This document shows, in pieces, positions 48,752-63,997 of a stretch of DNA of 64,000 nucleotides. The translations under genes and the position numbers were made by a program. Within the stretch, counting starts at the first letter, position 1, and every line of letters starts with the position of its first letter. The notes under the pieces are model-generated. The model had not been told where the DNA came from and did not search any database. It saw only the letters and a program-made list of their open reading frames with translations. Source of the stretch: a bacterium (GTDB lineage: Bacteria; Acidobacteriota; Thermoanaerobaculia; Multivoradales; JAHEKO01); assembly GCA_024224155.1 (NCBI GenBank), contig JAAENP010000099.1, positions 1 to 64,000 of the forward strand. The letters run 5' to 3'.

Positions 48752-51094
48752 TTGACCTTGTCTTCGGCTACGACACAGCGCTTGCGCCTCGAGATTTCGG
48801 GCGCGGTTCAGGGGGTTGGATTCAGGCCCTTCGTGTATCGCCTCGCCCGTGAAGCACGGATTGCGGGCTGGGTCCTCAACGACAGCCGGGGTGTCATCCT
48901 GGAAGTGGAGGGTGGGCATGCGGTGCTCGAGCGATTTGCCGAGAGAGTCCGGAGTGAGCATCCGGAGCATGCAGTGCTTGATCGTTTCGACTCGGCCTGG
49001 CTCGAGCCGGTGGGCCTGAGCGGCTTCGAGATCCGATCGAGCGAAGGAGCTGGAGACAAGACAGTGTCGGTGCTGCCGGACATCGCTACCTGCGGCCAGT
49101 GCCTTCGGGAGGTACTCGGCAGGGACAATCGACGCTACGGTTACCCGTTCACCAATTGCACCGATTGCGGACCTAGGTTCTCGATCATCGAGTCGCTGCC
49201 GTACGACCGCCCCAATACGACCATGCGCGGCTTTATCATGTGTGAGCGGTGCCAGCGGGAATACGAGGACCCCGCCGATCGGCGCTTCCACGCTCAGCCC
49301 AACGCCTGTGCTGAGTGTGGTCCTCGCCTCACTCTCGCGAATAGCGTGGGCAGAGAACTGGCTCGCGGGGAAGCAGCCTTGAAGGCGGCGGCGGCGGCGG
49401 TTCGCCGGGGACGAATCGTCGCGGTCAAGGGCCTGGGCGGGTTCCACTTGATGGTGGATGCGACTGACGGCGAGGCAGTGGCCTTGCTGCGTCGGCGCAA
49501 GGGTCGCTATGAAAAACCACTGGCTCTGATGGTGCGCCATCTCGACGAGGTCCGCGCCCTGGTCAAGGTCGCGACCGCGGCGGCTGATCTCCTGACTTCG
49601 TCACGGGCCCCGATCGTGCTTCTGCCCAGGCTTGCCGAGTCGGAGATCGCCGACGGAGTGGCTCCCGGGAATCCGAACCTGGGTGTAATGCTCGCCTACA
49701 CCCCGCTTCACCATCTCTTACTGGCTGAAATCGACAAGCCGGTGGTAGCTACCAGCGGCAATCTGTCGGACGAGCCGATTGCGATCGACAATGAAGAGGC
49801 ACTGGCGCGGCTGGCTCGAATCGCGGACTTGTTTCTCCTACACGACCGGCCGATCGAGCGTCATGTCGACGACAGCGTGTTCCACATGGTGGAAGAACAG
49901 GCCCAGCCACTTCGGCGGGCGCGAGGCTGGGCACCACTGCCGGTTTCGGTGCCGGCGGAGTTGCCGTGCATTCTGGGAGTGGGTGCACATCTCAAGAACA
50001 CCGTAGCGCTCGCCGTCGGTGACAAGGTTTTCATCAGCCAGCACATCGGCGACATGGAGACGCCCCAGGCGGTCGCGGCCTTTGAGCGCGTGATCGAGGA
50101 CTTTCTGGATCTCTACGAGGTGCTGCCGGTAGCGATTGCGCGGGATCTTCATCCCGACTACCACTCGTCTCGTTGGCCGGCGGCCACGATTCTCAAACCA
50201 CTGGCAGCGCTTCCGACGATCGCGGTGCAGCATCATCACGCCCATCTCGCCGCCTGCCTGGCGGATAACGACGAGCCGGGCAAGGCGCTCGGCGTGATCT
50301 GGGACGGGACCGGCTATGGCACCGATGGCTCGGTGTGGGGCGGCGAGTTTCTCTCGGGGGACGCGGCCGCCTTCGAGCGCGTGGCCTCGCTGCGACCGTT
50401 CCGACTGCCGGGCGGCGATGCCGCGGTGAGAGAGCCTCGACGGGTCGCGCTGGCTCTGTTGTGGGAGACCTTCGGCGAGGCTGGGTTCGAGCGCCACGAT
50501 CTGGCCTCGGTTCGAAGTTTCGAGAACGGCGAGCGGGCGCCACTGGCCCGGATGCTCGCGAGCGGTTTCGGCTCGCCGGTGACCACCAGCGCGGGCCGGT
50601 TGTTCGACGGTGTGGCCGCACTGCTGGATTTGCGCCAGAGGGTGGCGTTCGAGGGGCAGGCGGCGATGGCGCTCGAGTTCATCGCGGACCGCGAGGAGCG
50701 GGGTGCCTATCCGTTGCCTCTCGAGTCACGTGAAGCCGGTAGCGAGACGAGCCATCACGACGGCTTGTCGGTGGCGCTCGAACTGGACTGGCGGCCTCTG
50801 GTCGAGGCGGTGCTTGGCGATTTCCGGCGGGGCATCGCAGTGGGTATCATTGCGGCCAGGTTTCATCGTGCTCTGGTCGAGGCCATCGTGGACGTCGCCA
50901 GCGAGCTGGGAGAAGAGCGCGTGGCTCTCGCCGGAGGGTGCTTTCAGAACCGGCTGCTGTCGGAGTGGTCGGCCGAGCGGTTGCGTCGGGCCGGCTTCGA
51001 GGTTCTGATGCATCGACGGTTGCCGCCCAACGATGGCAGTATCAGCTTTGGACAGGTGGTTGTTGCAGCGGCCCGGCTCGAGAGAGGAGTCTGA
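48752..51094 (+). CDS. hypF: carbamoyltransferase HypF
   Basis: 780 residues from TTG 48752; a TTG two codons later, better spaced from GAGG, is equally possible, and an in-frame stop at 48737 limits extension. Domains in order: acylphosphatase-like (LEISGAVQGVGFRPFVYRLA), zinc region with repeated CxxC pairs (CGQCLREVLG, NCTDCGPRFS, MCERCQREYE, CAECGPRL), YrdC-like (VKGLGGFHLMVDATDGEAV) and a Kae1-like carbamoyl-transferase part with HHHAHLAAC and WDGTGYGTDGSVWGGEF. It makes the cyanide ligands of the [NiFe] active site from carbamoyl phosphate with HypE. First gene of hypFCDE; hypA and hypB are not in the window. Confidence 0.95.
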   Translation: MTLSSATTQRLRLEISGAVQGVGFRPFVYRLAREARIAGWVLNDSRGVILEVEGGHAVLERFAERVRSEHPEHAVLDRFDSAWLEPVGLSGFEIRSSEGAGDKTVSVLPDIATCGQCLREVLGRDNRRYGYPFTNCTDCGPRFSIIESLPYDRPNTTMRGFIMCERCQREYEDPADRRFHAQPNACAECGPRLTLANSVGRELARGEAALKAAAAAVRRGRIVAVKGLGGFHLMVDATDGEAVALLRRRKGRYEKPLALMVRHLDEVRALVKVATAAADLLTSSRAPIVLLPRLAESEIADGVAPGNPNLGVMLAYTPLHHLLLAEIDKPVVATSGNLSDEPIAIDNEEALARLARIADLFLLHDRPIERHVDDSVFHMVEEQAQPLRRARGWAPLPVSVPAELPCILGVGAHLKNTVALAVGDKVFISQHIGDMETPQAVAAFERVIEDFLDLYEVLPVAIARDLHPDYHSSRWPAATILKPLAALPTIAVQHHHAHLAACLADNDEPGKALGVIWDGTGYGTDGSVWGGEFLSGDAAAFERVASLRPFRLPGGDAAVREPRRVALALLWETFGEAGFERHDLASVRSFENGERAPLARMLASGFGSPVTTSAGRLFDGVAALLDLRQRVAFEGQAAMALEFIADREERGAYPLPLESREAGSETSHHDGLSVALELDWRPLVEAVLGDFRRGIAVGIIAARFHRALVEAIVDVASELGEERVALAGGCFQNRLLSEWSAERLRRAGFEVLMHRRLPPNDGSISFGQVVVAAARLERGV

Positions 51095-51097
51095 ACA

Positions 51098-51391
51098 ATG
51101 TGTCTTGGCGTTCCAGGCAAGGTGGTTTCGATCGAGGAGAATCCGCTCGGCATGAATATGGGCCGAGTCAGCTTCGGCGGCATCGTCAAGGAGGTGTGCC
51201 TCGCCTACACGCCCGAGGCCGAGATCGGGGACTATGTCGTGGTTCATGTCGGCTTCGCGATCAGCAAGATCGATGAAGACGAGGCGGCGAAGGTGTTCGA
51301 GTATCTGAGGGAGATGGACGAGCTCGGCGAGCTCGAAGTGCCGCAGCCGGGCGAGGTCCCAGGGGACGAGACTCGTGGGGGCGCGGCATGA
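51098..51391 (+). CDS. hypC: hydrogenase assembly chaperone HypC
   Basis: 97 residues from ATG 51098 with GAGAGGAG upstream. The N-terminal [12 protein letters not shown] contains the essential Cys2 after Met removal, and the OB-like body with [17 protein letters not shown] is standard. It holds iron with HypD during ligand delivery and docks on the large subunit. The C-terminus is about 15 residues longer than in E. coli HypC and rich in Glu/Gly/Pro. The gene lies 3 nt after hypF and overlaps hypD by ATGA. Confidence 0.95.
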
Positions 51392-52482
51392 GGTTTGTCG
51401 ACGAGTATCGCTCCGAGCCCGAGGCCCGGAAATTCGTCGACGCGATCCATGGTGTTGTTACCAAGCCCTGGAGCTTGATGGAGATCTGCGGAGGCCAGAC
51501 CCACACTCTGATCAAGTCCGGCATCGATCGGCTCTTGCCGGAGCAGGTGACGTTGGTTCACGGCCCGGGGTGCCCGGTGTGCGTGACGCCGCTCGAGCAG
51601 ATCGAGCGCGCCCTCGCGATCGCCCGGCGGCCGGAGGTGATCTTCACCTCCTTCGGCGACATGTTGAGAGTGCCCGGAACGTCGGCGGATCTCCTGAGTG
51701 TCAAGTCGCAAGGCGGCGACGTCCGCATCGTCTATTCGCCACTGGACGCGGTTAAACTCGCGGAGCAGAATCCGAACCGTCAGGTGGTGTTTTTCGCCGT
51801 CGGCTTCGAGACGACGGCGCCTGCTAACGCCATGTCGGTATGGACCGCCCACAGACAAGGATTGGAGAACTTCTCGATTCTGTGCTCGCACGTTCTGGTG
51901 CCGCCGGCGATGGAGGCTATCTTGAGCGCGCCGCACAATCAGGTACAGGGTTTCATGGCCGCGGGGCACGTCTGCGCGGTGATGGGCTACTGGCAGTACG
52001 GGCCGATCGCCGACAAGTACGAGATTCCGATCGTGGTGACCGGATTTGAGCCGTTGGATCTGCTCCAGGGCTGCTACATGACATTGAAGGCTCTCGAGGA
52101 AGGACGCTCGGGCGTTGAGAATCAGTACACACGGTCGGTCACCTACGAAGGCAACCGGCCCGCGCAGAGACTGCTTCGCCAAGTCTTCGAGCCGTGCGAC
52201 CGTGCCTGGCGGGGCATCGGTTCGATCCCGGAGAGCGGGTATCGGCTGCGATCTGAGTATGCCACCTACGACGCCGAGACCCGATTTGACGTTGGCGATA
52301 TCGAGGCCGCAGAATCCGAAGAGTGCATCGCCGGCGAGATCTTGCAGGGCTTGCGGAAACCGCACGAGTGCTCGGCCTTCGGATCCAAATGCACACCGGA
52401 GAATCCTTTGGGCGCGCCGATGGTGTCGTCGGAAGGCGCTTGCGCGGCGTACTACCACTACGGCCGGGTGAAAGTCTCCTGA
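51388..52482 (+). CDS. hypD: hydrogenase iron-ligand assembly protein HypD
   Basis: 364 residues from ATG 51388. The conserved cysteine motifs are intact: [54 protein letters not shown], and the C-terminal [4Fe-4S] ligand set with [20 protein letters not shown] and SEGACAAYY. HypD carries the Fe(CN)2CO unit with HypC and moves electrons for ligand attachment. The length (about 370) fits. It is 26 nt before hypE in the same operon. Confidence 0.95.
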
Positions 52483-52508
52483 CCGACCACTCGGAGAGTA
52501 GGGGAGTC

Positions 52509-53600
52509 ATGTCCGACAAAGATCCACTGCCCAGGTTCGCCGGCTCCTGCCCGATCCCGATCAGCGACTATCCGATGGTGCAAATGGCCCATGGAGGGGG
52601 TGGGCGACTTAGCCAGATGCTGATCGAGAAGCTGTTCGTTCCGGCCTTCGACAATCCGGTGCTCGAGAATCTCCACGACGGGGCGGTGCTGGGCCTGAGT
52701 TCGGGGTCGGAGCGCTCTCCCGGGCAGCAGCGGCTGGCGTTTTCGACCGACTCGTTCGTCGTGCGGCCGCTCTTCTTTCCGGGTGGCGACATCGGATCGC
52801 TCGCGGTTCACGGCACGGTCAACGACGTCGCGATGTGCGGCGCCAAGCCGATGGCGATCTCGGCCGGCTTCATTCTCGAAGAAGGCTTCGCGATGGGAGA
52901 TCTCTGGCGAATCGTCGAGTCGATGCGGGATGCCGCCCTAGAGGCGGGTGTCTGGGTGGTAACCGGCGACACCAAGGTGGTCGACAAGGGCAAGGGGGAC
53001 GGCGTCTACATCAATACCACCGGCGTGGGTCTGCTGCGCGACGGCGTCGAGATCTCGCCCGAGGGGGCGTCGGTCGGCGACAAGATCCTGATCAACGGAC
53101 CGATCGCCGAGCACGGCATCGCGATCATGTCGGTTCGGGAGGGCCTCGAGTTCGAGACCCGGCTCGAGACCGATTCGGCGGCCCTCTATCCGTTGGTCGA
53201 GCTGCTTCTCGACAACTTGCCGGATGACCTGCGGGTGCTCCGGGATCCCACCCGCGGAGGAGTCGCGAGCGCTCTCAACGAGATCGCCGGTCAATCGAAC
53301 GCGGGCGTCCTTCTCGAAGAGGATCGGATTCCACTGTCCGAGGAGGTCCGCGGTGCCTGTGAGATCCTGGGCTTCGATCCACTCTACGTAGCCAATGAGG
53401 GCAAATGTCTGGCCATCATCGCCGCCGATCGTGCCGAGGAAGCGCTCGAGCTCTGGCGCTCGCACCGCCTCGGCGCCCAGGCGGCAATCATAGGCGAGGT
53501 CGTCGACGACCACCCCGGCCGTGTCGTCCTGCGCTCGTCCATCGGCGGCCTGCGAGTCGTCGACATGCTCTCCGGCGAGCAGCTGCCACGCATCTGCTGA
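52509..53600 (+). CDS. hypE: carbamoyl dehydratase HypE
   Basis: 363 residues from ATG 52509 behind GGGGAG. PurM/ThiL-like ATP-dependent fold: MAHGGGGRLSQMLIEKLFVP, LAFSTDSFVVRPLFFPGGDI, LAVHGTVNDVAMCGAKPMAI, RDPTRGGVASALNEIAGQSN. The protein ends in LPRIC, whose C-terminal Cys accepts the carbamoyl group from HypF and is dehydrated to thiocyanate. The ending agrees with the function, so the gene is complete. It is the last gene of the group and converges on the minus-strand redox operon, whose last stop is at 53605. Confidence 0.95.
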   Translation: MSDKDPLPRFAGSCPIPISDYPMVQMAHGGGGRLSQMLIEKLFVPAFDNPVLENLHDGAVLGLSSGSERSPGQQRLAFSTDSFVVRPLFFPGGDIGSLAVHGTVNDVAMCGAKPMAISAGFILEEGFAMGDLWRIVESMRDAALEAGVWVVTGDTKVVDKGKGDGVYINTTGVGLLRDGVEISPEGASVGDKILINGPIAEHGIAIMSVREGLEFETRLETDSAALYPLVELLLDNLPDDLRVLRDPTRGGVASALNEIAGQSNAGVLLEEDRIPLSEEVRGACEILGFDPLYVANEGKCLAIIAADRAEEALELWRSHRLGAQAAIIGEVVDDHPGRVVLRSSIGGLRVVDMLSGEQLPRIC

Positions 53601-53604
53601 CCGG

Positions 53605-53730
53605 TCAAGGTTCCTTGTCGGGGCCTCTGAGGTACCTCACCAGGAAGACAAAAAGAACCAGGAAGGCCATGAGAAGCAGGTACTCCAGCCCCTTGGTCTC
53701 GAAGATATTGACGTAGTAGTAGGTCTCCAT
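53605..53730 (-). CDS. 41-residue single-helix membrane protein of the NrfD complex
   Basis: ATG 53730 follows AGGGAG about 12 nt upstream and the nrfD-like stop by 12 nt. The product begins METYYYVNIFETKGLEYLLL and continues MAFLVLFVFLVRYLRGPDKE, P: one hydrophobic helix of about 18 residues flanked by charged ends. A tiny membrane subunit of this kind closes the Nhc and Hmc operons of sulfate reducers (NhcD, HmcD). The hydrophobic core, the ribosome site and the place directly after the NrfD-like gene make it likely to be real. It probably stabilises the membrane part of the complex. Confidence 0.75.
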   Translation of the reverse strand: METYYYVNIFETKGLEYLLLMAFLVLFVFLVRYLRGPDKEP

Positions 53731-53742
53731 TTCTCGTGCTCC

Positions 53743-55011
53743 CTACACCGTGGTCGATGGTATCGGCGCGCCGGCTCTGGCTCGCTGCGCAGGCAGCTCA
53801 TGCGCTTCCCGGAGAACCGGCATTCGAAGCACGATCCAGCGGAACACCCAGATTTCCGTGAACACCACCATCAGCGTCACCACGATCTCCTGCCAGGACG
53901 GGTAGTAGCGGACCGCCGCGGTCCAGTTGTAGGCGATGACCGAGGTGTTGAGACGATTGAGGATGATGCCCACCAGAGCCATGACGGCGGCAACGCGCAC
54001 CGTGCCGACACTGCGGTTGCGCACGCCATAGGCGAAAAGTACACACGGAAACAGCACGAAGCCCAGTATCTCGACCAGGTACCAGGCGCCCCAGCCGTCG
54101 GTGAGCAAGGTCCACTGCCGGTCGTGGACGAAAGTGAGCAACTTGAAGAAGTAGTAAACGAAGAGCGAAATCGCGGCTCCTTTGCCGAGCCCGAGAATGA
54201 TGTCTTCGAAAGTATGGTGCTTGGCGGGATCGATCTGGTCCTTGAACACGCGATGGCTGATCGTGCCCTCGACGATGATCATCGACAGACCGGCAAAGAT
54301 GCTCGATACCAGGAAAAAAATCGGGATGAACTCCGAGTACCACAGGGGATGGATCTTCGATTTGGCCATGAGAAACAGGGCGCCGAGGCCGGACTGGTGC
54401 AGGCTGGACAGCGTGACACCGAAGATCACGGTTCCCAATGTCAGCGCGCCCAGGATCCGGCGGAGTTTCTTCCAGCCCGCCCACTCCGCAATCACCGGGG
54501 AGAACTCCACCAGCTCGGCCAGCATGTAGAGCATGAAGTGCCACGACACGAGGAAGAGCACGGAGTTGTAACCGAAGGAGTTGCCGATGATCGGATTGAT
54601 GATGTGCCAGGGCCGGCCGAGATCCAGAACCAGCGCCCCGGCATAGAACACATAGGCGAGAAGACCGGAGAGCACCGTGGGCCTGACGATGGGGTGGTAC
54701 TTCTCGAGCTTCATCACGTAGACGGCGAAGGTGATTGCGTAGGCACCGCCGGCGAAGGCCACGCCAGTGACGACATCGAAGCCGATCCAGAACCCCCAGG
54801 GGAATTCCTGAGAGAGGTTGGTGACCGCTCCCAGGCCCTTTGTGAACCGGACCACCAGAATGCCGAGGCCGAGCAGGATGACCGGGATCGAGATGACGTT
54901 AAAAGGAGTCAGCAGCTTGCCCTTGGGCCTGGCCTCGGAGAGCAGCAACCTGCCGAAGCGCCTGAGCTCTCCACCAAGATCGCGATTCTCCAGCATCGAC
55001 GGCCTTCTCAC
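53743..55011 (-). CDS. NrfD/PsrC-family quinone-interacting membrane subunit
   Basis: 422 residues from GTG 55011, overlapping the Fe-S subunit stop as GTGA; ATG 54996 is possible. It has about ten hydrophobic helices, with NVISIPVILLGLGILVVRFT first, GFDVVTGVAFAGGAYAITFA and ADLGRPWHI-like sequence VLDLGRPWHIINPIIGNSFG, then SVLFLVSWHFMLYMLAELVE. NrfD proteins accept electrons to or from quinone without their own cofactor and some move protons. It should take electrons from the Fe-S subunit encoded just before it, linking the pentaheme cytochrome to the quinone pool. HmcC, NhcC and DsrP are the relatives. Confidence 0.9.
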   Translation of the reverse strand: MRRPSMLENRDLGGELRRFGRLLLSEARPKGKLLTPFNVISIPVILLGLGILVVRFTKGLGAVTNLSQEFPWGFWIGFDVVTGVAFAGGAYAITFAVYVMKLEKYHPIVRPTVLSGLLAYVFYAGALVLDLGRPWHIINPIIGNSFGYNSVLFLVSWHFMLYMLAELVEFSPVIAEWAGWKKLRRILGALTLGTVIFGVTLSSLHQSGLGALFLMAKSKIHPLWYSEFIPIFFLVSSIFAGLSMIIVEGTISHRVFKDQIDPAKHHTFEDIILGLGKGAAISLFVYYFFKLLTFVHDRQWTLLTDGWGAWYLVEILGFVLFPCVLFAYGVRNRSVGTVRVAAVMALVGIILNRLNTSVIAYNWTAAVRYYPSWQEIVVTLMVVFTEIWVFRWIVLRMPVLREAHELPAQRARAGAPIPSTTV

Positions 55012-55856
55012 GGCTCCGACTCCTTCTCGGCGAGCAAGCTCAAGCCGAGAAGCAGTGCCGGCAGTCCGAAAAGGACAAGCGGCACGCCGTAGAGAAAATC
55101 ACGGGTGAACTCGGGATAGGGAGTCGTCCCGAGATCGGTTCGGAAACCCAACTCCTCGAAGGGCACTGCCGATAGATACAGCCAGCCGGTACCTCCCACT
55201 TCGTGCTCGCCGTAGATGTTGTGAACGTACTTGTCTGGATGGTTGTAGATACGAATGCGGGCGATCTCCATCAGGTCGCGCTTCCTGCCGAACATCAGCG
55301 CGTCGGTCGGGCAGGATTCGACACAGGCCGGTTTCTTGCCCTCTCCCAGCCTTTCCCAGCACATGTTGCACTTCTGGATCTTCGGATTCCACGAGTTGTA
55401 CTCGAACTTGGGGATCTCGAAGGGGCAGGAGACCATGCAGAAACGACATCCCATGCATTTGTCCGGATGCCAGATCACCGGCCCTTTGCGGGTCTTGTGC
55501 ATGGCGTTGGTGAGGCACGCCGCGGTGCAAGCCGGTTGCCAGCAATGCATGCATTGTCTCTTGACGAACACCTCGCCGCGGCTGGTTTCATAGCGATTGA
55601 CCACCATCCACTGATGGTCTGAGGTCGGTCTTTCGTGCTCGAGCAGATCGTCGTTCTCGATGTCGGGTACGGGGAGATCGTGAGTCAGCGAGCACGAGCG
55701 CTCGCACGCGCGGCAGCCGATGCAGCGGGTGGTGTCGACGAGAACGCCCCAGAACTCAGGGCTGTCCGGTTCCGGAGGGGAGTCAGCTCTGGCCGGCCCG
55801 GTAGCCGCCGCGGCTCCGGCCGCTCCGGCGAGTTTGAGAAACCCTCTCCTATCCAT
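55008..55856 (-). CDS. Tat-exported ferredoxin-like 4x[4Fe-4S] subunit with C-terminal anchor
   Basis: 282 residues from ATG 55856 with AAGGGG upstream, overlapping the cytochrome stop by a few nt. Twin-arginine signal MDRRGFLKLAGAAGAAAAT. Cysteine runs for four clusters: DTTRCIGCRACERSCSLTHD, KRQCMHCWQPACTAACLTNA, HPDKCMGCRFCMVSCPFEIP, and KCNMCWERLGEGKKPACVES followed by CPTDAL. Residues about 255-278 form a membrane helix (YGVPLVLFGLPALLLGLSLL). It is of the HybA/HmcB/NrfC type and should lie on the periplasmic side between the cytochrome and the NrfD-like protein. Confidence 0.92.
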   Translation of the reverse strand: MDRRGFLKLAGAAGAAAATGPARADSPPEPDSPEFWGVLVDTTRCIGCRACERSCSLTHDLPVPDIENDDLLEHERPTSDHQWMVVNRYETSRGEVFVKRQCMHCWQPACTAACLTNAMHKTRKGPVIWHPDKCMGCRFCMVSCPFEIPKFEYNSWNPKIQKCNMCWERLGEGKKPACVESCPTDALMFGRKRDLMEIARIRIYNHPDKYVHNIYGEHEVGGTGWLYLSAVPFEELGFRTDLGTTPYPEFTRDFLYGVPLVLFGLPALLLGLSLLAEKESEP

Positions 55857-56373
55857 GCTGATCCCCTTCTTTCGCGTCGGAAGCGTCTGCCTTGTGGCAG
55901 AGGCTGCAACCGCGTGACGCGTCTCGGCCGGTGCCGCCTTCGTGGCATTCGAAGCAACTCCGGTGAATGACGACCTTGGCACTCAGGGTCTCGTCGGCAA
56001 TGGTGGTGGGTGACGAGTGGTGGCAGGCTGAGCAGGCCTGAGGAGAGGCGGGCGGAGCTTCGGACAGGTGACAGGTCTGGCACTCGATCCAGAAGTCATC
56101 GAAGTACTCCTGATGGGGAATGCTCAGTGCCGCGGCGTTGGTCTCGTGATGGCAGGTAACACATTCGATCTCGAAATCGGAGGCGTGCATCGAGTGAGGA
56201 AAGTCGACGGTTCCCGCGACCGTGAAACTGGTGATGACCTCGGGCGGCTCGCGATCGAGCTCCGGGGATTGGCTTTCGGCCGGCAGCGCCATCAGAAGAG
56301 CGGTCAGGACGACGGCTGGGCGGAACGCGAACATTTTTCTTCGGCTCGTCCGATGCTTCCGACCGCCGGTCAT
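55849..56373 (-). CDS. periplasmic pentaheme cytochrome c (class III / c7-like)
   Basis: 174 residues from ATG 56373, overlapping the previous stop as ATGA. A signal peptide runs to about residue 34 (VVLTALLMALPAESQS). Five CxxCH heme motifs begin at residues 71, 98, 114, 140 and 156 (CVTCH, CQTCH, CSACH, CFECH, CSLCH). Distal histidine candidates are FPHSMHAS, IPHQEY and VVIHRS, the pattern of bis-His c7/c3 cytochromes. It should receive electrons in the periplasm, for example from a hydrogenase or formate dehydrogenase, and hand them to the Fe-S/NrfD pair. NhcA of Desulfovibrio has nine hemes and QrcA six, so this one is a smaller relative in function rather than in sequence. Confidence 0.9.
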   Translation of the reverse strand: MTGGRKHRTSRRKMFAFRPAVVLTALLMALPAESQSPELDREPPEVITSFTVAGTVDFPHSMHASDFEIECVTCHHETNAAALSIPHQEYFDDFWIECQTCHLSEAPPASPQACSACHHSSPTTIADETLSAKVVIHRSCFECHEGGTGRDASRGCSLCHKADASDAKEGDQHG

Positions 56374-57530
56374 GCGGCTTGCGAGTTCAGGAAGGCGTGG
56401 GCGAAAGCGGACCACGCGAGGTCGAAGGAGCGACTCTCCTCGTTTGCGCCGGGCTCCTGCGCGTCGCCCGCTTCCTGTTCGAGAGCTTGCGCAGCGGAAC
56501 GAAGTTTCACGATCTCCTGCTCGTACCAGGGCACCGCATCGCAGCCGATAGTCAGCTCGGTCAGATCCGCACTCAGGTTGTCGGGCTCGACCGAGCAGAT
56601 CCAGCCCAGCTGGTAGGGACGGCGCCTGAGCAGGTCGAGGTGATAGGTGAGCTCGTGGTTTGCCCGCGTGATCTTTCCGTCCAGTGGCGAAGGAAAGGTG
56701 AGCGAGCGCTCGCCCCTCGAGATCGTAAACAGTGGTGCCCCCTTTCTGACCTTGGTGCCCGGATCGGGGAAGGTGATGTCGTCCGTCGGTCCGAGCGACT
56801 TGTGAATGAAGTCGTCAAGGCCGATTCGGGCTTCGCCGTTGACTTCGACGCTCACCCAGGTGTGATGGGGCGAGACGAAGATGCCGCCGGGAACGTTGAC
56901 CACATGATTGGACTCGGATTCTTGAGACGAGGCGGTGACCAGGCGCACCCTGGGTGGGGTCTGCCGCTCGATTCGGTCCTGGCGCCGGATGACGAGTTGG
57001 TCGGTGAAATCGACCAACTCGTCCTCGGTGAACGGTTTCTGCACATAGTCCATGGCGCCGTACTTCATCGCGTCGACCGCGGACTCGATCGTGGCATAGC
57101 CGGTGATCATCACGACGTCGATGTCGGGTCTCAGATGCTTCGAGGCCTTGGTGACGTCCAACCCGTCGAGACCCGGCATCTTCAAGTCGGTGAAGACGAA
57201 GTCGTAGTCGTTCTTTCGTAACAGGCTCAGAGCCTCTTGGCCCGTTTCGACGGTGTCCACCGAGTAGCCTGCCAGGACGAGGATCTTGCGGAAGCTGTCG
57301 AGGATTACCGGTTCGTCGTCGATCGCCAGGATTCTGGCCTTGGGCTTTTCGACGGTCACCCGCTTCAGACTCCGGGCCTCGTCTGCGAACTCGAGCTTGA
57401 GTCCGATGTCCAGCGCCTTCTCCCGCTCTCTGCGCTGGCGAGACTGCTCGATCTTCTTGAGCGACACGCGCAGTGCCAGGTCGACGAGAAAGAAGACAAC
57501 AACTGTGAGGATGACGAGAACTGCAACCAT
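56370..57530 (-). CDS. membrane-anchored response regulator fused to a non-lipoylated GcvH-like domain
   Basis: 386 residues from ATG 57530, 4 nt after the previous stop. Residues 2-19 are one membrane helix, 20-60 a charged linker, 65-180 a receiver (DDEP at 71-74, phospho-Asp D115 in FVFTDLKMPGLDG, VMITGYATIES, VQKPF). Residues about 214-318 match the glycine cleavage H-protein fold: HHTWVSVEVNGEARIGLDDF, LGPTDDITFPDPGTKVRKGA, SPLDGKITRANHEL, PYQLGWICSV. Where GcvH has its lipoyl-lysine, this protein has E274 (SRGERS), so no lipoyl group can be attached. The tail of 60 residues is unassigned. No DNA-binding domain is present. It probably acts at the membrane, perhaps on the NrfD complex genes next to it. 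Confidence 0.82.
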   Translation of the reverse strand: MVAVLVILTVVVFFLVDLALRVSLKKIEQSRQRREREKALDIGLKLEFADEARSLKRVTVEKPKARILAIDDEPVILDSFRKILVLAGYSVDTVETGQEALSLLRKNDYDFVFTDLKMPGLDGLDVTKASKHLRPDIDVVMITGYATIESAVDAMKYGAMDYVQKPFTEDELVDFTDQLVIRRQDRIERQTPPRVRLVTASSQESESNHVVNVPGGIFVSPHHTWVSVEVNGEARIGLDDFIHKSLGPTDDITFPDPGTKVRKGAPLFTISRGERSLTFPSPLDGKITRANHELTYHLDLLRRRPYQLGWICSVEPDNLSADLTELTIGCDAVPWYEQEIVKLRSAAQALEQEAGDAQEPGANEESRSFDLAWSAFAHAFLNSQAA

Positions 57531-57534
57531 GGTG

Positions 57535-58329
57535 CTACTCCATCTGAAGCCAGCGTTGATCGAGGAAATCGAGCTCGCGGTCGAGGTTGTCGGGGATAAT
57601 CCGGGTCAGCCAGCCCTTGCCGAACGGATCTCGATTGATGAGCTCGATCGAGTCGCGGATCAGCGGATTGGCGGTCAGTACGATGCCGCTCAGCGGAGAC
57701 CTGACCCGGTGGACTATCTCCCCGGGAGTGAGAATCCGGGCGAGAAGTCTGCCTTGCATCGTGCGCTGTTCGGGCTCGAGCAACTCGATCGTTTCGATTT
57801 CGCCGAGCAGGTCCGGGAACGTCTCGGCCAGGCCGAGAGTAGCCGAGCCGTCGGAGTCCAGTCTGGCCCACGAGTGTCGACCGAGAAAGTAGCTGGGCGC
57901 GCCCGGCACGGCGCCGATCCCACTGCCGGCCGTGCCCGGTGCGGTTCCGAGCTTCTTGTCTGAGAACTCGAGGGCCCGTCGCACGACCCCCAAGAGCTCG
58001 CCGATGTCGAAGGGCTTGGCGACGAAGTCGAAGCCGCCCTTGCGAAACGTCATCAGGGCGTTGTCGAGCGTCGCGTAGCCGGTGATCACCACCACCTCGA
58101 TGTCGGGCCAACGGTCTTGAATCAGCTCGAGGAGGTCGAAGCCCGAGGCTCCGGGAAGCTTGAGGTCCGATAGAACCAGGCGGCATCGAGTATCTCGCAG
58201 GATCTCGCAGGCCTCGTTGACGTCGTTCGCCGTCACGACCTCCAGATCGTCCTCTCTGAGGATCTTCCGAGCGGCGGCTACCACTACCGGCTCGTCCTCG
58301 ACGACCAGAACGTCGATCCGTCGGGTCAT
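57535..58329 (-). CDS. response regulator fused to a non-lipoylated GcvH-like domain
   Basis: 264 residues from ATG 58329, overlapping the heme kinase stop by ATGA. Receiver at 1-125: VLVVEDEPVV, D55 in LVLSDLKLPGASGFD, VVITGYATLDN, VAKPFDIGEL, of NtrC-like type. After a Gly/Ala/Pro linker, residues 145-252 are GcvH-like: GRHSWARLDSDGSATLGLAE, LLGEIETIELLEPEQ, SPLSGIVLTANPLI, PFGKGWLTRIIPDNL. The lipoyl position again holds a glutamate, E204 in TPGEIV. It lacks the membrane helix of its neighbour. Two regulators with the same rare output domain in one operon suggest a pair that acts in sequence or as a heterodimer. glycine cleavage partners gcvT and gcvP are absent. Confidence 0.83.
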   Translation of the reverse strand: MTRRIDVLVVEDEPVVVAAARKILREDDLEVVTANDVNEACEILRDTRCRLVLSDLKLPGASGFDLLELIQDRWPDIEVVVITGYATLDNALMTFRKGGFDFVAKPFDIGELLGVVRRALEFSDKKLGTAPGTAGSGIGAVPGAPSYFLGRHSWARLDSDGSATLGLAETFPDLLGEIETIELLEPEQRTMQGRLLARILTPGEIVHRVRSPLSGIVLTANPLIRDSIELINRDPFGKGWLTRIIPDNLDRELDFLDQRWLQME

Positions 58330-59849
58330 CGGGCCTCCTCGGCGTCGGTCAAGCCGGTTCCGGGCTCTGCCGGAAGAAGCAGCGTGAAGGTCGTGCCGCG
58401 CTCGGGCTTGCTGTTGACCGACACCGTGCCGCCGTGCTCCTGGACAATCCCCCAGACAACCGCCAGCCCCAGACCGGTACCTTCGGTGGCTTTGGTCGTG
58501 AAGAAAGGCTCGAAGATCCTGTCGATGTGGTCGCGCGGAATTCCGCAACCGCTGTCTGCTACCTTGATCTCGACCTGCCGGCCGTTCTCCGGGTCCATGA
58601 CGTCGGAGGATATGAAGATCTCGCCGCCCCCTTCACCGATGGCGTCTGCGGCGTTGACGAGCAGGTTGATCAGCACCTGTACGAGTTGGTTTCCATCTCC
58701 CATCACCCTGGGGAGCTCCGGCTGCAGGGTCTTGGTGACTCCGATATTGCCGACACTGAGTTGGTTGTCGACGATGTCGAGTGATCGCTCTATAACCTGG
58801 TTGCAGTCTATGTAGGTCTTGTGGGTCGGTGCTTGTCGTGAGAAATCGAGTAAGCCCTTGACGATCTCGCGACACCTCTTGGCCTCGCGAACAACGGTCA
58901 CGAGGTCTTGCTTCGTTTCTGAATCGTCGGGTGCGCGTTTGAGCAGGAAGCTGCTGTAGGTCAGAACTCCGGTCAGAGGGTTGTTGATCTCGTGCGCGAT
59001 TCCGGCCGTGAGCTGACCGAGCGACGCCAGTTTGTTGGACTGGTAGATCTGCTTTTGCGCCTCAGCCAGCTTCTCGGTCATTGTGTTGAAGGACTCGTCG
59101 AGCTGGCCGAACTCGTCGTTGCGCTTGACCTCGAGCTTGTAGTCCAGATTGCCCGAAGCCACCGCATCGGTGGCTTTCAAGAGCTGCAGCAACGGCTTGT
59201 CGACGAGGAAGCGGAACAAGATCCAGATGATTGCGCTGGCGGCAAGGATGGCGCTTGGAACCAGGATCAGCGCTCTGTTCCTGTTTGCGGCCATGTGGCG
59301 GTCGACGCTTTCCAGCGACATCGTCACGTCCAGGACACCGAGGACCGTCTGAGCCGCAGGGTGCGCGTGGCATTCACCGTTAGAACAGCTTGTCTCGTTA
59401 TAGATAGGGTTGATGATCCCCAACGTGCGGAAGCCGTTTTCGGTCATGAAGGTACGAGTGCGTTGGCTCATCGACAACCGCTCGAGTGGTGCGTCAGCGG
59501 CATGACAGGCGTAGCAAGACTCCGCGTCCTTGTCGACGAAGGTGCCGATCAGCAGTTTGTCGTCGGCGTAGGAGACCTCGCCCTCCTTGTTGAAGACCCG
59601 CACTCGGTCGATGCCCTCCTGTCGGCCGATGGTGTCGATGATCTCGTGCACCTGGTCGGGTCGATTCCTGAGCATCGCGTAGCGGGTGCTGCTCTTGATT
59701 GTCTCGCTGAGCTGATTGGCCTGGAGCTCGATCTCCGAGGTCATGGCCGCGTGCTGAGATCCGATCAGCCACACGACGAAAAGGCCGAAGGCGAGAAGGG
59801 TAGTAGCCGCCACGGCCGCCATGAGTCTGTGACTGATCTTGGGCCTCAT
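58326..59849 (-). CDS. sensor histidine kinase with a periplasmic diheme domain
   Basis: 507 residues from ATG 59849, overlapping the small ORF stop by ATGA. One membrane helix at 10-30 and another near 192-215 bound a periplasmic domain with two heme c motifs: C112-C115-H116 (CYACH) and a CX4CH motif C155-C160-H161 (CSNGECH). HAMP follows at 216-270, then HisKA with H286 in GIAHEINNPLTGVLTYSSFL and an HATPase (LINLLVNAADAI, DSGCGIPRDHIDRIFEPFFT, GTGLGLAVVWGI). It should sense the redox state or a small ligand such as NO or O2 at the hemes. The two following receiver genes are its likely targets. The CX4CH form is known from some multiheme cytochromes. Confidence 0.9.
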   Translation of the reverse strand: MRPKISHRLMAAVAATTLLAFGLFVVWLIGSQHAAMTSEIELQANQLSETIKSSTRYAMLRNRPDQVHEIIDTIGRQEGIDRVRVFNKEGEVSYADDKLLIGTFVDKDAESCYACHAADAPLERLSMSQRTRTFMTENGFRTLGIINPIYNETSCSNGECHAHPAAQTVLGVLDVTMSLESVDRHMAANRNRALILVPSAILAASAIIWILFRFLVDKPLLQLLKATDAVASGNLDYKLEVKRNDEFGQLDESFNTMTEKLAEAQKQIYQSNKLASLGQLTAGIAHEINNPLTGVLTYSSFLLKRAPDDSETKQDLVTVVREAKRCREIVKGLLDFSRQAPTHKTYIDCNQVIERSLDIVDNQLSVGNIGVTKTLQPELPRVMGDGNQLVQVLINLLVNAADAIGEGGGEIFISSDVMDPENGRQVEIKVADSGCGIPRDHIDRIFEPFFTTKATEGTGLGLAVVWGIVQEHGGTVSVNSKPERGTTFTLLLPAEPGTGLTDAEEAR

Positions 59850-59989
59850 CTCTGGGTGCCGGATTCGACCGAGAACAGGTTTCCTGCAATGCAACCACGG
59901 CGACGAATGCCGACAGTTGTTCCCGGAGAGTCCCCCCGGCCGAGGTCGCGCCGGTCGGCCGACCCGAGAGGCGGTTGAGGAATGGGCAT
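59846..59989 (-). CDS. 47-residue ORF translationally coupled to the heme kinase
   Basis: ATG 59989 has an excellent ribosome site, GGAGGTGA, a few nt upstream, and its stop overlaps the kinase ATG as ATGA, while the kinase itself has only a poor site. The product starts MPIPQPPLGSADRRDLGRGD and ends SVESGTQR; it is Arg/Gly-rich, has one Cys, no membrane helix and no known motif. Either it is a leader ORF that loads ribosomes onto the kinase gene or a small protein of its own. The peptide sequence does not look strongly conserved in type, so a coupling role is more likely. Confidence 0.45.
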   Translation of the reverse strand: MPIPQPPLGSADRRDLGRGDSPGTTVGIRRRGCIAGNLFSVESGTQR

Positions 59990-60204: not shown

Positions 60205-61602
60205 TCAGGGGGCCACGGCGGCCGCTGCGCGGGCCTCGGCCGGAAGTGAGTTGCGCAGGGGCAGTGACACCGTGATCTTCGTTCCAGCGCCTTGTTGGCT
60301 CGACAGGGCGACGCTTCCGCCGTGCAGCTCGATGGCGGCCTTGACGATGGTCAGCCCCAGACCTGTTCCGTTGGGTTCAAGGTGTTTCGCCTCGGGTCCG
60401 CGAACGAACTCCAGAAACACCCCGGGCTGGAGATCCTCAGGGATACCGATGCCCTGGTCCGCCACGGTGATCGTGGTCCGCTCTCCAGCCGGGACCACCG
60501 ATACCTTGACCTCGCCCTCGGGGCGAGAGTAGCGGATCGCGTTGTCGATCAAGTTGTCGAACGCGAAGCGAAGGTCGGGCGGCACGCCCCAGCGCAGTAT
60601 CGGCCTTCCCTCGAGGTTGGAGATGAGACGGACACCGCGGCTCCTGGCGAAGGGCTCGAGGGAATCCAGCGCCGCGGCGAGGATGTCGTTGATGTCCACT
60701 CCGCGAGTCCACGGTGCCCGCTCCTGCCCTTCCCGGATCTTGGCCAGCTCCAGGAGATCGTTGACGATCGCCAGCAGATGATCGGCCCGCTCGACAGCAC
60801 CCGACAGCAACCTTCCTCCTCGTTGTGAGCGGGGATCTACGAAGCCCTGTGTGAGTACCTCGAGCAAAGTCTTGACGGTGGCAAGCGGAGAGCGCAACTG
60901 GTGCGCCGAGATCCGCATGTAGTGCGACTTCCTGTGTTCGAGGTCTCGGATCTCGTTCAACACGTGCTCGAGCCGGACGGTTTTTCTCCGCAATTGCAGA
61001 GTGGTTTCCCGAAGCTCGACACTCTTCAGCTTGGATCGCTCGGTGACGGTGCCCATCAGATAGACGATCCCGAAAAGCGCGACGATGAGCGCCGCCAAGT
61101 TGAAGTCGCACAACCGGCCGCAGGCCGGAGCGGCAGGATCGAGGGTCTGACGCGCCAGCAGGCCGTATGATTCCGCAAGATGGAGAGCGGCCGCACCGGC
61201 GCAAGCCCCGGCCGCGATCTCGTACATCGTTCGAGTGGACAGCATCGTCGTGCCGATGGCCATGTGAAAGACGAAGAAGATCAAGGCCGGGCTTGCCAGG
61301 CCGCCGGTGAAGTGCACGGTCACCAGCAGCATCGTGAGGTCGAGAAGGATCTCGGTGATGCCGAGCACCTTCAACCGAGTATCCGAGTAACTCTCGCGCT
61401 GCTTGCGAAGGAAGAAGTGGAAGCAGAAGTTGTAGGCGCCCACAATGACGGCGACGATCAGCAGGCTCGGCCACAGATGGGGTAGCTCCAGGAGGTCTCC
61501 AAGCAGGGATGCAGCGGCCAGCCCGCCGGCCGCCAGCCAGCGGAGCTTCTCGAACCAGCGCAGCCGTTCCAAAAACTCGGGGGGAAGCGTGAGAGCTTGC
61601 AT
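60205..61602 (-). CDS. membrane sensor histidine kinase linked to the [NiFeSe] hydrogenase
   Basis: 465 residues from ATG 61602. About six helices in the first 200 residues, with VHFTGGLASPALIFFVFHMA closely resembling IYYTGGVSSPLSVFLIFHVI of the kinase at 46429-48360. Between the late helices a small loop holds two Cys (ACGRLCDFN). A coiled coil (ELRETTLQLRRKTVRLEHVL) leads to HisKA with the His of ISAHQLRSPLATVKTLLEVL and an HATPase (FDNLIDNAIRYSRPEG, DQGIGIPEDLQPG, GTGLGLTIVKAAI). There is no GAF domain, unlike its relative. It follows the lone receiver gene of the hydrogenase group by 53 nt and should phosphorylate it. Signal unknown. Confidence 0.88.
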   Translation of the reverse strand: MQALTLPPEFLERLRWFEKLRWLAAGGLAAASLLGDLLELPHLWPSLLIVAVIVGAYNFCFHFFLRKQRESYSDTRLKVLGITEILLDLTMLLVTVHFTGGLASPALIFFVFHMAIGTTMLSTRTMYEIAAGACAGAAALHLAESYGLLARQTLDPAAPACGRLCDFNLAALIVALFGIVYLMGTVTERSKLKSVELRETTLQLRRKTVRLEHVLNEIRDLEHRKSHYMRISAHQLRSPLATVKTLLEVLTQGFVDPRSQRGGRLLSGAVERADHLLAIVNDLLELAKIREGQERAPWTRGVDINDILAAALDSLEPFARSRGVRLISNLEGRPILRWGVPPDLRFAFDNLIDNAIRYSRPEGEVKVSVVPAGERTTITVADQGIGIPEDLQPGVFLEFVRGPEAKHLEPNGTGLGLTIVKAAIELHGGSVALSSQQGAGTKITVSLPLRNSLPAEARAAAAVAP

Positions 61603-61655
61603 TCCGATCAGCCTTGAGCGCCGGCAGAGCGCCGGCTGGAGATCCCGCTGTGCTT

Positions 61656-62045
61656 TCAGGCTCGCCGGGGCGCCAGGACGTCCTCGATCACCTCCAGCAT
61701 AGTCTCGGGTGCGACGGGCTTCTCCAGATAGCGGTCGTGGGGAACGTAAGAGTCCTGGACCTCCATCCGGAAGTCGTAGACCTGGTCCACGGCGGTGAGC
61801 ATGATCACCGGAATATGGCTGGTCTCCGGATCGGCCTTGACTCTACGGGCCACGTCGAACCCCTCGGACAGATGGTTCATCATCACGTCCAGCACCAGAA
61901 CATCTGGTCTCTCGCGTTGAAGCTGGACCAAGGCCTCGGTCCCATTGGCCGCAGTCACGACGTCGAAGCGGGTCTCCAGAACGGCGCTTAGCGCGTCAAC
62001 GAACACGGCATCGTCGTCCACCAGAAGTACTCGTTTTCTCTGCAT
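61656..62045 (-). CDS. single-domain response regulator linked to the [NiFeSe] hydrogenase
   Basis: 129 residues from ATG 62045, 11 nt after the protease stop. A lone receiver: VLLVDDDAVFVDALSAVLET, phospho-Asp in VLVLDVMMNHLSEGFD, VIMLTAVDQVYDFRMEVQDS and Lys in DRYLEKPVAPETM. The VMLTAVDxxxDFRMEV insert is unusual in length before the final Lys helix. No output domain. Its place between a hydrogenase protease and a membrane kinase copies the order of the hox region, so the regulator probably acts on hydrogenase-related proteins or on a partner kinase. Confidence 0.88.
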   Translation of the reverse strand: MQRKRVLLVDDDAVFVDALSAVLETRFDVVTAANGTEALVQLQRERPDVLVLDVMMNHLSEGFDVARRVKADPETSHIPVIMLTAVDQVYDFRMEVQDSYVPHDRYLEKPVAPETMLEVIEDVLAPRRA

Positions 62046-62056
62046 GGTGTTCTCCG

Positions 62057-62545
62057 TCAGGGGCGGAGCATTCGGATCACGAGATCCGCAGCCTCGGTAA
62101 CCGCGCTCCGCATCGGTTCGGACAGCCCCGGTCGTACCTCCTCGAGCTCGGCGGCGGTCTGGGCCGCCACGATGGTGACCCGGATGCCGCTCGCGTCTTG
62201 AAGCTCCTTGAGGAGATTGGTGGTGGGGAACTGGTGAAATGAGTAGTCGGCGATCTTTTTTTCTGGGATCTCATCCACCGAGATCTCGAATACCTCTCCC
62301 GGCGCACGCTCGGGCTTGTCGACCGCGTCGAGAACGATGATGTGCTCGGGACGGCGGTCGAGGAGGGCGATGTCGAATAGGATGCCGCGAATGCTGGTGC
62401 CCACGTCCTCGGGGTGAGCGTCGTCGGGGAGATCGCCCCGTTCGCGCAGCCTCTCGATCACCGCCGGTCCGAAGCCGTCATCGCCCAGCAGTACATTGCC
62501 GCAGCCGAAGATCAGCACCCTCTTGGTCTCGATCTCCTTGAACAT
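62057..62545 (-). CDS. hydrogenase maturation protease for the [NiFeSe] large subunit
   Basis: 162 residues from ATG 62545, which follows the large-subunit TAG without a gap. Endopeptidase family of HycI/HyaD: RVLIFGCGNVLLGDDGFGPA near residue 9 with the nickel-sensing Asp, IIVLDAVDKPERAPGEVFEI near 68 for the second acidic ligand, and the His of YSFHQFPTTNLLKELQ near 102. It should trim the C-terminal tail of the large subunit just upstream. It is only distantly like hoxW, so each hydrogenase has its own protease. Confidence 0.9.
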   Translation of the reverse strand: MFKEIETKRVLIFGCGNVLLGDDGFGPAVIERLRERGDLPDDAHPEDVGTSIRGILFDIALLDRRPEHIIVLDAVDKPERAPGEVFEISVDEIPEKKIADYSFHQFPTTNLLKELQDASGIRVTIVAAQTAAELEEVRPGLSEPMRSAVTEAADLVIRMLRP

Positions 62546-63997
62546 CTAGAAGTTTCGCAGTCTCTCGATCTCTTCTCCTTCGCTGTCGACCAGGCTGATC
62601 TCCAGATCCATGCCGCCATCCAGGCGGTGGGTGGCACAGCTCAGTCACGGATCATAGGCGCGTATGGCCATCTCCACTCTGTTGAGAAGTCCCTGATCGT
62701 AGTTGGCGTCCTTGATCAACGCCGAAGCCGCCTGCTTGATCGACATGTTGATGGGCGCCTGGTTATGGGTAGTACCCACGATCAGGTTGGCCTTGGCAAT
62801 CATACCGTCGTCGTCGCCGGAGTAGTGGTGGATCAGGGTCCCACGCGGCGCCTCGACGCATCCCACGCCCTCGCCGGCCCGGACCTCCACCTGGGCGCGG
62901 ATGTCGCGGCCGGTGATCTCCGGATCTTCGAGCAGCTCGATGGCCCGCTCGCAGTTGTGGACCAGCTCGATCAGGCGCGCCCAGTGATAGAGGAGCGTCA
63001 GCTGCGCCGGCCGGCCGAACTCGGCACGGAACAGCTCGAGCTCTTGCTGTGCCTCCGGAGTGCTAATCCGCTCGCAGACGTTGATGCGGGAGAGCGCGTT
63101 GCTGCGGTAGATCCCCAGCGGGTCGTCCAGATCCATCGAGAACTGCCCGTTCGCCCAGCGCTTGGCGAAGGGCATCTTGGCGTAGCTCCAGGGCTCGATG
63201 TGCTCGCCGATGTGGTCCGTGTAGTCCTCATAGGCAAAGTCGTCGAAGGTACCGTCGGGCTTCATCAGACGGATCTTGCCGTCGTAGATGTCGTGGGTAC
63301 CGTCGTCGGTCACCGTGCCGATAAAGCCGGTGTTGATGACGCCCAGGGTCTTGACCGTGTCGAGGTACTTGGGGAAGACCTCGGTCTTGGCGTAGTCGAT
63401 CGAGAACTTGGCGAACTCGAGCTGCTCTCTGGTCTCGGCCAAGAACTCCAGGCGCTCCTCTTCGAGCAGCGGCCGAGAGAAACCGCCGGCGACCGCCGCC
63501 ACCGGATGGATGACCTTGCCCAGCCACTTCTCGAGCAGCATGGCGCCGCGGTAGCGGTGCTGGACCACTTTGCGAGCCAGCTCGGGGGCCTCCTTGGCGA
63601 TGCCGATGACGTTGCGGACCGCCGGGTCGGCATCGGGCCCGAGGACGAAATCCGGCGCGGCCAGGAAGTAGAAGTGCAGCAGCTTGTCCGGGATCCAGGC
63701 CAGGTGCTGGGCCAGTCGACGCAACTTGACCGCGGTCGGGGGCGGCTCGACCCCGAAGACGCGATCGGCGGCCTTGACCGAGGCCAGATGGTGATTCCAC
63801 GGACAGATGCCGCAGATACGGTTGACGATGCGTGGCATCTCCTCGACCGGCCGGCCCTCGCAGAACTTCTCGAAGCCGCGCAGCGCCATCACGTGGAACC
63901 TGGCGTCGTTGACGTTCCCCGCATCGTCGAGCTCGATCGCTACTCGCGCGTGCCCCTCGATCCGGGTGATCGGTTGGATGTTGATGGTTTGTCCCAT
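62546..63997 (-). CDS. [NiFeSe] hydrogenase large subunit with selenocysteine encoded by in-frame TGA
   Basis: 483 residues from ATG 63997 to TAG 62546 if the TGA at 62647-62645 is read as selenocysteine. N-terminal nickel ligands C62 and C65 are in [20 protein letters not shown]. The C-terminal motif is DP-U451-LSC-ATH with C454 and H457, where hydrogenases normally have DPCxxCxxH; the Sec replaces exactly the cysteine that is Sec in known [NiFeSe] enzymes. The frame goes on for 26 residues after His457 ([13 protein letters not shown] and on), a removable tail, and stops 1 nt before the protease start. A hairpin follows the TGA. The short length and sequence fit group 3, closest to the Mvh/Vhu type. 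The small subunit should lie outside the window. Standard translation would end at DP, with no nickel site. Confidence 0.9.
62613..62627 (-). promoter_or_regulatory. candidate bacterial SECIS hairpin
   Basis: On the minus strand CCGCC-TGGAT-GGCGG forms a perfect 5-bp stem starting 17 nt after the TGA codon, and CCA/TGG can extend it across a 2-nt bulge. The loop begins with T then G, 22 nt after the TGA. Bacterial SECIS elements lie directly downstream of the UGA with a small apical loop and an early conserved G at about this distance, so it is a good candidate for SelB recruitment. Confidence 0.6.

Follow-up and report, generated by a model that had tools for sequence, protein, structure and literature searches.

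NrfD-type respiratory complexes, of which the Hmc complex (HmcABCDEF) of sulfate reducers and HybA/HybB of E. coli hydrogenase 2 are the closest described to the system reported here, pair an Fe-S subunit exported by twin-arginine translocation (Tat) with an integral membrane NrfD protein, and regulation of bacterial respiratory chains is believed to lie chiefly in gene expression. The window analysed here (64,000 nucleotides, positions 1 to 64,000 of contig JAAENP010000099.1 of the acidobacterial assembly GCA_024224155.1) contains a seven-gene operon, read on the minus strand from 59849 down to 53605, in which genes for such a complex follow those of a sensor histidine kinase with two heme c motifs and of two response regulators, RR-GcvH1 and the membrane-anchored TM-RR-GcvH2, whose receivers are joined to domains resembling GcvH, the glycine cleavage H-protein. 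On balance we favour a reading in which the kinase senses redox state and phosphorylates regulators docked on the NrfD complex, controlling it post-translationally.

The operon also shares with Hmc-type complexes a multiheme cytochrome and a small membrane peptide, and with its Tat Fe-S protein and NrfD membrane protein (HybA/HybB, HmcB/HmcC) it encodes an NrfD-type oxidoreductase module in the broad sense. However, its cytochrome has five CXXCH motifs rather than the sixteen of the hexadecaheme HmcA, HmcE/HmcF-like genes are absent from the operon, and the scores of the Fe-S protein against HmcB (333.7 bits) and of the NrfD protein against HmcC (415.2 bits), whilst the best NCBIfam matches for each, lie below the curated cut-offs of 420 and 550 bits respectively; assignment as an Hmc equivalog was rejected on the scores and the heme count. 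We know of no counterpart of the GcvH-like subunits or of the two-component genes in Hmc-related or HybA/HybB systems.

The signalling proteins resemble NtrC-type systems, which combine ZraS/AtoS-like kinases with sigma-54 activators, in that the kinase core is closest to AtoS/ZraS and the receivers are nearest to NtrC/NtrX. Unlike these systems, the window regulators lack AAA+ and Fis-type DNA-binding domains and carry a GcvH-like domain, and the kinase sensor carries two heme c motifs. The heme motifs, CYACH (CXXCH) and CSNGECH (CX4CH, not CXXCH), lie in an extracytoplasmic sensor between two transmembrane (TM) helices, with both motifs, the H-box, and the ATP-binding residues invariant in 21/21 aligned kinases. 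A structure search with the kinase matched only kinase cores and was uninformative on the sensor. The heme c sensors of Geobacter chemotaxis receptors (PDB 3b42; Pfam Mcp40H-20_sensor) are periplasmic with covalent heme, as the window sensor is predicted to be, with a weak match (E 3e-4; E 0.05), however the window sensor has two heme motifs and is part of a histidine kinase.

Output domains of the two regulators

The H-protein fold supposed for both output domains in an earlier, sequence-only reading of the window is established by Pfam profiles for both and by predicted structure for TM-RR-GcvH2. An AlphaFold2 model of TM-RR-GcvH2 built from 42 sequences has a mean predicted local distance difference test score of 89.2, and a Foldseek search with this model returns H-proteins as the best matches (1onl, E 6.9e-12, TM-score 0.88 by target), followed by receivers. 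These domains share with GcvH (PF01597) both the fold and the profile match, but lack the lipoyl lysine, are fused to a receiver, and are encoded in a respiratory operon. Regulator P0001 scores 56.7 bits against the NCBIfam GcvH model, below its curated cut-off of 117, and those relatives that were compared with TIGR03077 (not_gcvH) and NF045810 (GcvH-related) fall far short of the cut-offs of both. The closest named locus, L109, is 80% identical over the regulator, and a domain 49% identical to that of RR-GcvH1 is present in L010.

Both window regulators have glutamate at the position of the lipoyl lysine, as the sequence-only reading stated, however a special role for the residue is not supported by comparison with relatives. 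Lysine occupies the position in 2/56 RR-GcvH1-type and 3/94 TM-RR-GcvH2-type domains (5/150 in total), compared with 7/7 true GcvH, and glutamate in 12/56 and 6/94 respectively, with no conserved substitute and a variable hairpin tip. A conserved glutamate in place of the lysine was thus rejected, the position being free to vary. Short GcvH-like proteins of Desulfobacterota (L262:1107-1550 and L265:9569-9997) retain the lysine, set in an unusual KW context, and are a separate, probably lipoylatable paralogue.

The receiver site of TM-RR-GcvH2 is intact, with the acidic pair (D71, D72), the phospho-acceptor aspartate (D115), T143, and K165 invariant in 42 aligned rows. A DNA-binding domain was found by Pfam in neither window regulator (P0001, P0002), and all 42 TM-RR-GcvH2-type sequences match only receiver and GcvH/barrel-sandwich families, bar one stray match, which bears out the earlier statement that such a domain is absent from both regulators. 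In TM-RR-GcvH2 the TM helix is followed by basic residues, and the positive-inside rule therefore places the receiver and GcvH-like domain in the cytoplasm. The TM-RR-GcvH2 receiver evolves far slower than the GcvH domain joined to it, its end branches measuring a few hundredths compared with several tenths for the domain, and the partner surface of the receiver seems to be tightly held.

Response regulators whose output domain binds protein are already known. As far as the open-licence literature searched shows, one with a GcvH-like output and a link to a respiratory complex is undescribed; no account of receiver-GcvH proteins or of such regulation was found there, an earlier one in subscription papers being possible, and the passages found in a paper on Melioribacter roseus respiration (PMC5492636) do not mention the cluster.

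Association with the NrfD-type complex and receiver-less modules

A scan of named genomes located 80 TM-RR-GcvH2 loci, in Acidobacteriota, KSB1, Beta- and Gammaproteobacteria, Bacteroidota, Ignavibacteriota, Calditrichota, Gemmatimonadota, Spirochaetota, Myxococcota, and others; with Cloacimonetes and Rhodothermota, and with Pseudomonadota among them, the module is found in about ten phyla. Loci L171 and L173 come from metagenome-assembled genomes named Melioribacter roseus. Ten of these genomes with TM-RR-GcvH2, searched whole, hold RR-GcvH genes alongside short GcvH-sized genes. In a sample of 396 Acidobacteriota genomes, members of the membrane-GcvH family score ~110–253 bits against the family model and short ordinary GcvH at most 106, a gap narrow enough to make single borderline matches unreliable. 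A simple gene caller was run on each neighbourhood and the genes were identified by BLAST against the window proteins. After removal of duplicates, 44 receiver-GcvH loci flanked on either side by 6 kb or more were counted, together with a comparison set of 34 loci in which the GcvH-like protein has no receiver.

An HmcC-type NrfD is encoded in 42/44 receiver-GcvH loci (on the same strand in 41), HmcB in 42/44, and a kinase bearing two or more heme motifs in 42/44, the exceptions being L146, where the kinase is not in range, and L258 and L259, both from one Desulfobacterota genome (G436). As a 17-kb stretch makes up ~0.3% of a 5.7-Mb genome, chance proximity is negligible. The sequence-only reading asked whether NrfD/multiheme operons always adjoin such fusions; the association is strong, but not universal. 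Neither of the outcomes that it had named as refuting it, a predicted structure without the H-protein fold or fusions scattered with no link to NrfD-type complexes, was observed. Genome G436 has several receiver-GcvH genes.

Gene fusions suggest that the association extends to direct contact with the electron-transfer complex. A profile made from free copies of the 41-residue peptide encoded behind NrfD recovers 37 free peptides, as well as 14 proteins whose matching TM segment runs on into a GcvH-like domain, with only two other long matches, which resemble free peptides with translation begun too far upstream; in the first search, the first match outside the GcvH-like proteins had an E-value of 0.68 among 5652 open reading frames. 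Furthermore, L259:7233-8585 encodes a 450-residue receiver-GcvH-HdrC protein (HdrC being CoB-CoM heterodisulfide reductase C; TIGR03290, 1.4e-32). The TM helix of TM-RR-GcvH2, which anchors its cytoplasmic receiver and GcvH-like domain at the membrane, is a third pointer to such contact.

The receiver-less modules have the same kind of diheme kinase, however an NtrC-type sigma-54 activator is present in 23/34 of them compared with 6/44 receiver-GcvH loci (Fisher p 1e-6), and an archaemetzincin protease, a protein of ~180 residues encoded behind the NtrC-type regulator (Pfam Peptidase_M54, E 9e-24), in 19/34 compared with 0/44 (Fisher p 3e-9). Their GcvH-like proteins also end in a C-terminal DGG motif in 28/34 loci, compared with 1/44 (Fisher p 3e-14). 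Unrelated major facilitator superfamily transporters encoded beside a Cys-rich GcvH-like gene (L287:7092-8444 and L272:10031-11356) end in LGATMADGGEK, resembling this motif, and the shared ending is possibly a tag or a protease recognition motif. The Cys-rich proteins form a third lysine-less GcvH-like class, with the N-terminal segment CVWMxxGxxxYKLCxxxYxCExC (L074, L079, L082, L103, L266, L267, and L280), and are often encoded beside a kinase, NtrC, and archaemetzincin, with NrfD present or absent.

In a tree of GcvH domains, TM-RR-GcvH2 is nested in the receiver-less TM-GcvH clade and RR-GcvH1 lies elsewhere, and the two are also separate in a tree of receivers, from which it follows that receivers joined GcvH-like proteins at least twice within the same module. 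Such repeated gain suggests that the GcvH-like protein is the target of control. Derivation of the fusion receiver from the module's own NtrC partner is not supported, with the TM-RR-GcvH2 receivers forming a clade of their own.

Proposed control of the complex and rival explanations

In the mechanism we propose, the output would be protein-protein contact with the quinone-linked respiratory complex and not with DNA. Through its diheme domain in the periplasm, the kinase would sense the redox state of the electron pool there, perhaps that of the pentaheme cytochrome itself, and would phosphorylate the receivers of both the soluble and the membrane-anchored regulator, as adjacency and intact receiver sites suggest. 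The GcvH-like domains, without a lipoyl group, would dock from the cytoplasm on the HmcC/NrfD core and the 41-residue subunit, a placement to which the gene fusions point, with phosphorylation of the receiver altering the docking so that electron or proton flow through the complex may be opened or throttled. In related modules the GcvH-like subunit lacks a receiver, and a DNA-binding NtrC-type regulator is usually present for the kinase. A broader proposal is held more tentatively, at somewhat less than even confidence: that NrfD-type complexes carry a cytoplasmic GcvH-like regulatory subunit whose built-in receiver is phosphorylated by a diheme kinase to switch the complex itself, with sister modules acting on that subunit by NtrC-driven synthesis and possibly by archaemetzincin at the C-terminal DGG motif, the whole being widespread and undescribed.

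Several observations weigh against post-translational control through docked regulators. Operon linkage alone would also fit a structural subunit that happens to carry a receiver. Most named loci were picked by likeness to TM-RR-GcvH2, a biased sample of receiver-GcvH proteins, and loci related to one another do not count as independent. The distant receiver-GcvH proteins of L107 and L108, on contigs of 7–8 kb with kinases lacking hemes, have no NrfD there, and neither L258, which adjoins heme kinase, cytochrome b, and multiheme genes, nor L259 has a nearby NrfD.

Of the alternatives, control of assembly or localisation is a real but distinctly less probable one, with the GcvH-like proteins serving the NrfD complex as structural or chaperone subunits, by which it is recruited or stabilised, and receiver phosphorylation setting the amount of complex and not its speed. 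The membrane anchor, the fusions to the 41-residue subunit, and the receiver-less relatives in the same operons fit a structural part, and the frequent archaemetzincin of the receiver-less loci would suit control of subunit amount; however, such a role would not call for a pair of distinct receiver-bearing GcvH proteins in each operon, and to our knowledge no assembly factor has the H-protein fold. We regard it as unlikely that the regulators act on transcription indirectly, by modulating a separate DNA-binding regulator or by serving as phosphate sinks for the kinase. Whilst kinases of this type are clearly paired with NtrC-type regulators in other loci, and six receiver-GcvH loci also contain one, 38/44 have none within 8.5 kb, TM-RR-GcvH2 is anchored in the membrane, and the fusions indicate the complex, not transcription. 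That the GcvH-like domains are lipoylated, or bear another cofactor, and are themselves involved in chemistry or electron transfer seems very improbable: the H-protein fold and the lysine retained by the short Desulfobacterota proteins are consistent with this, but the near absence of that lysine from the receiver-bearing domains, with no conserved replacement, argues against it.

If regulators docked on the complex do control it, a phosphorelay ending on a subunit of the complex would provide direct and fast control of electron flow. The occurrence of the module across so many phyla, usually as one compact operon, makes the idea testable in a cultured host, and the proposal would assign a function to the many lysine-less GcvH-like proteins, a large family easily mistaken for glycine cleavage components.

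Organisation of the operon and its surroundings

All seven genes of the sequence-only reading, namely the kinase, the two RR-GcvH proteins, the pentaheme cytochrome, the Fe-S protein, NrfD, and the 41-residue peptide, were confirmed in the order given there. Its extension of the stretch to 59989 was not, with the first Met of the kinase at 59849, and the ATGA overlaps it described hold at the kinase/RR-GcvH1 and TM-RR-GcvH2/cytochrome junctions, but not at Fe-S/NrfD, where the overlap is GTGA, nor at RR-GcvH1/TM-RR-GcvH2 and NrfD/peptide, where gaps of 4 and 12 bases are found. With junctions of short overlaps or gaps of 4–12 bases, the genes very probably form a single transcript.

Table 1. 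Genes of the window operon (window positions) and archaemetzincin genes of receiver-less modules (locus:positions)
Feature	Position	Strand	Details
Sensor histidine kinase	58326..59849	-	TM helix, periplasmic part with 2 heme c motifs, TM helix, HAMP, HisKA, HATPase
RR-GcvH1, soluble	57535..58329	-	Receiver and GcvH-like domain; Pfam Response_reg 2.3e-24, GCV_H 2.7e-16
TM-RR-GcvH2	56370..57530	-	N-terminal TM helix, receiver, GcvH-like domain, C-terminal helices; Pfam Response_reg 6.1e-30, GCV_H 6.8e-17
Periplasmic pentaheme cytochrome c (P0003)	55849..56373	-	Five CXXCH; Cytochrom_CIII 7e-10; start at ATGA overlap
HmcB/HybA-like Fe-S subunit	55008..55856	-	Tat signal, C-terminal membrane anchor; NCBIfam HmcB 9.3e-100, HybA 1.8e-66
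HmcC/HybB-like NrfD integral membrane subunit	53743..55011	-	NCBIfam HmcC 2.9e-124, HybB 8e-79
41-residue single-TM subunit	53605..53730	-	Near-invariant core NIFETKGLEYLL; conserved directly behind NrfD in ~30 loci
Archaemetzincin	L280:13391-13939; L271:11305-11847; L267:7999-8535; L287:5702-6283		Receiver-less modules

Upstream of the operon and on the same strand, positions 60205-63997 of the window and the contig continuation (L297) encode another histidine kinase, a stand-alone receiver (61656-62045), and a hydrogenase maturation protease, together with [NiFe] hydrogenase genes, including a large subunit closest to VhuA, and large Nuo/Hdr-like subunits. From the other side, hyp genes (48752-53600) converge on the operon.

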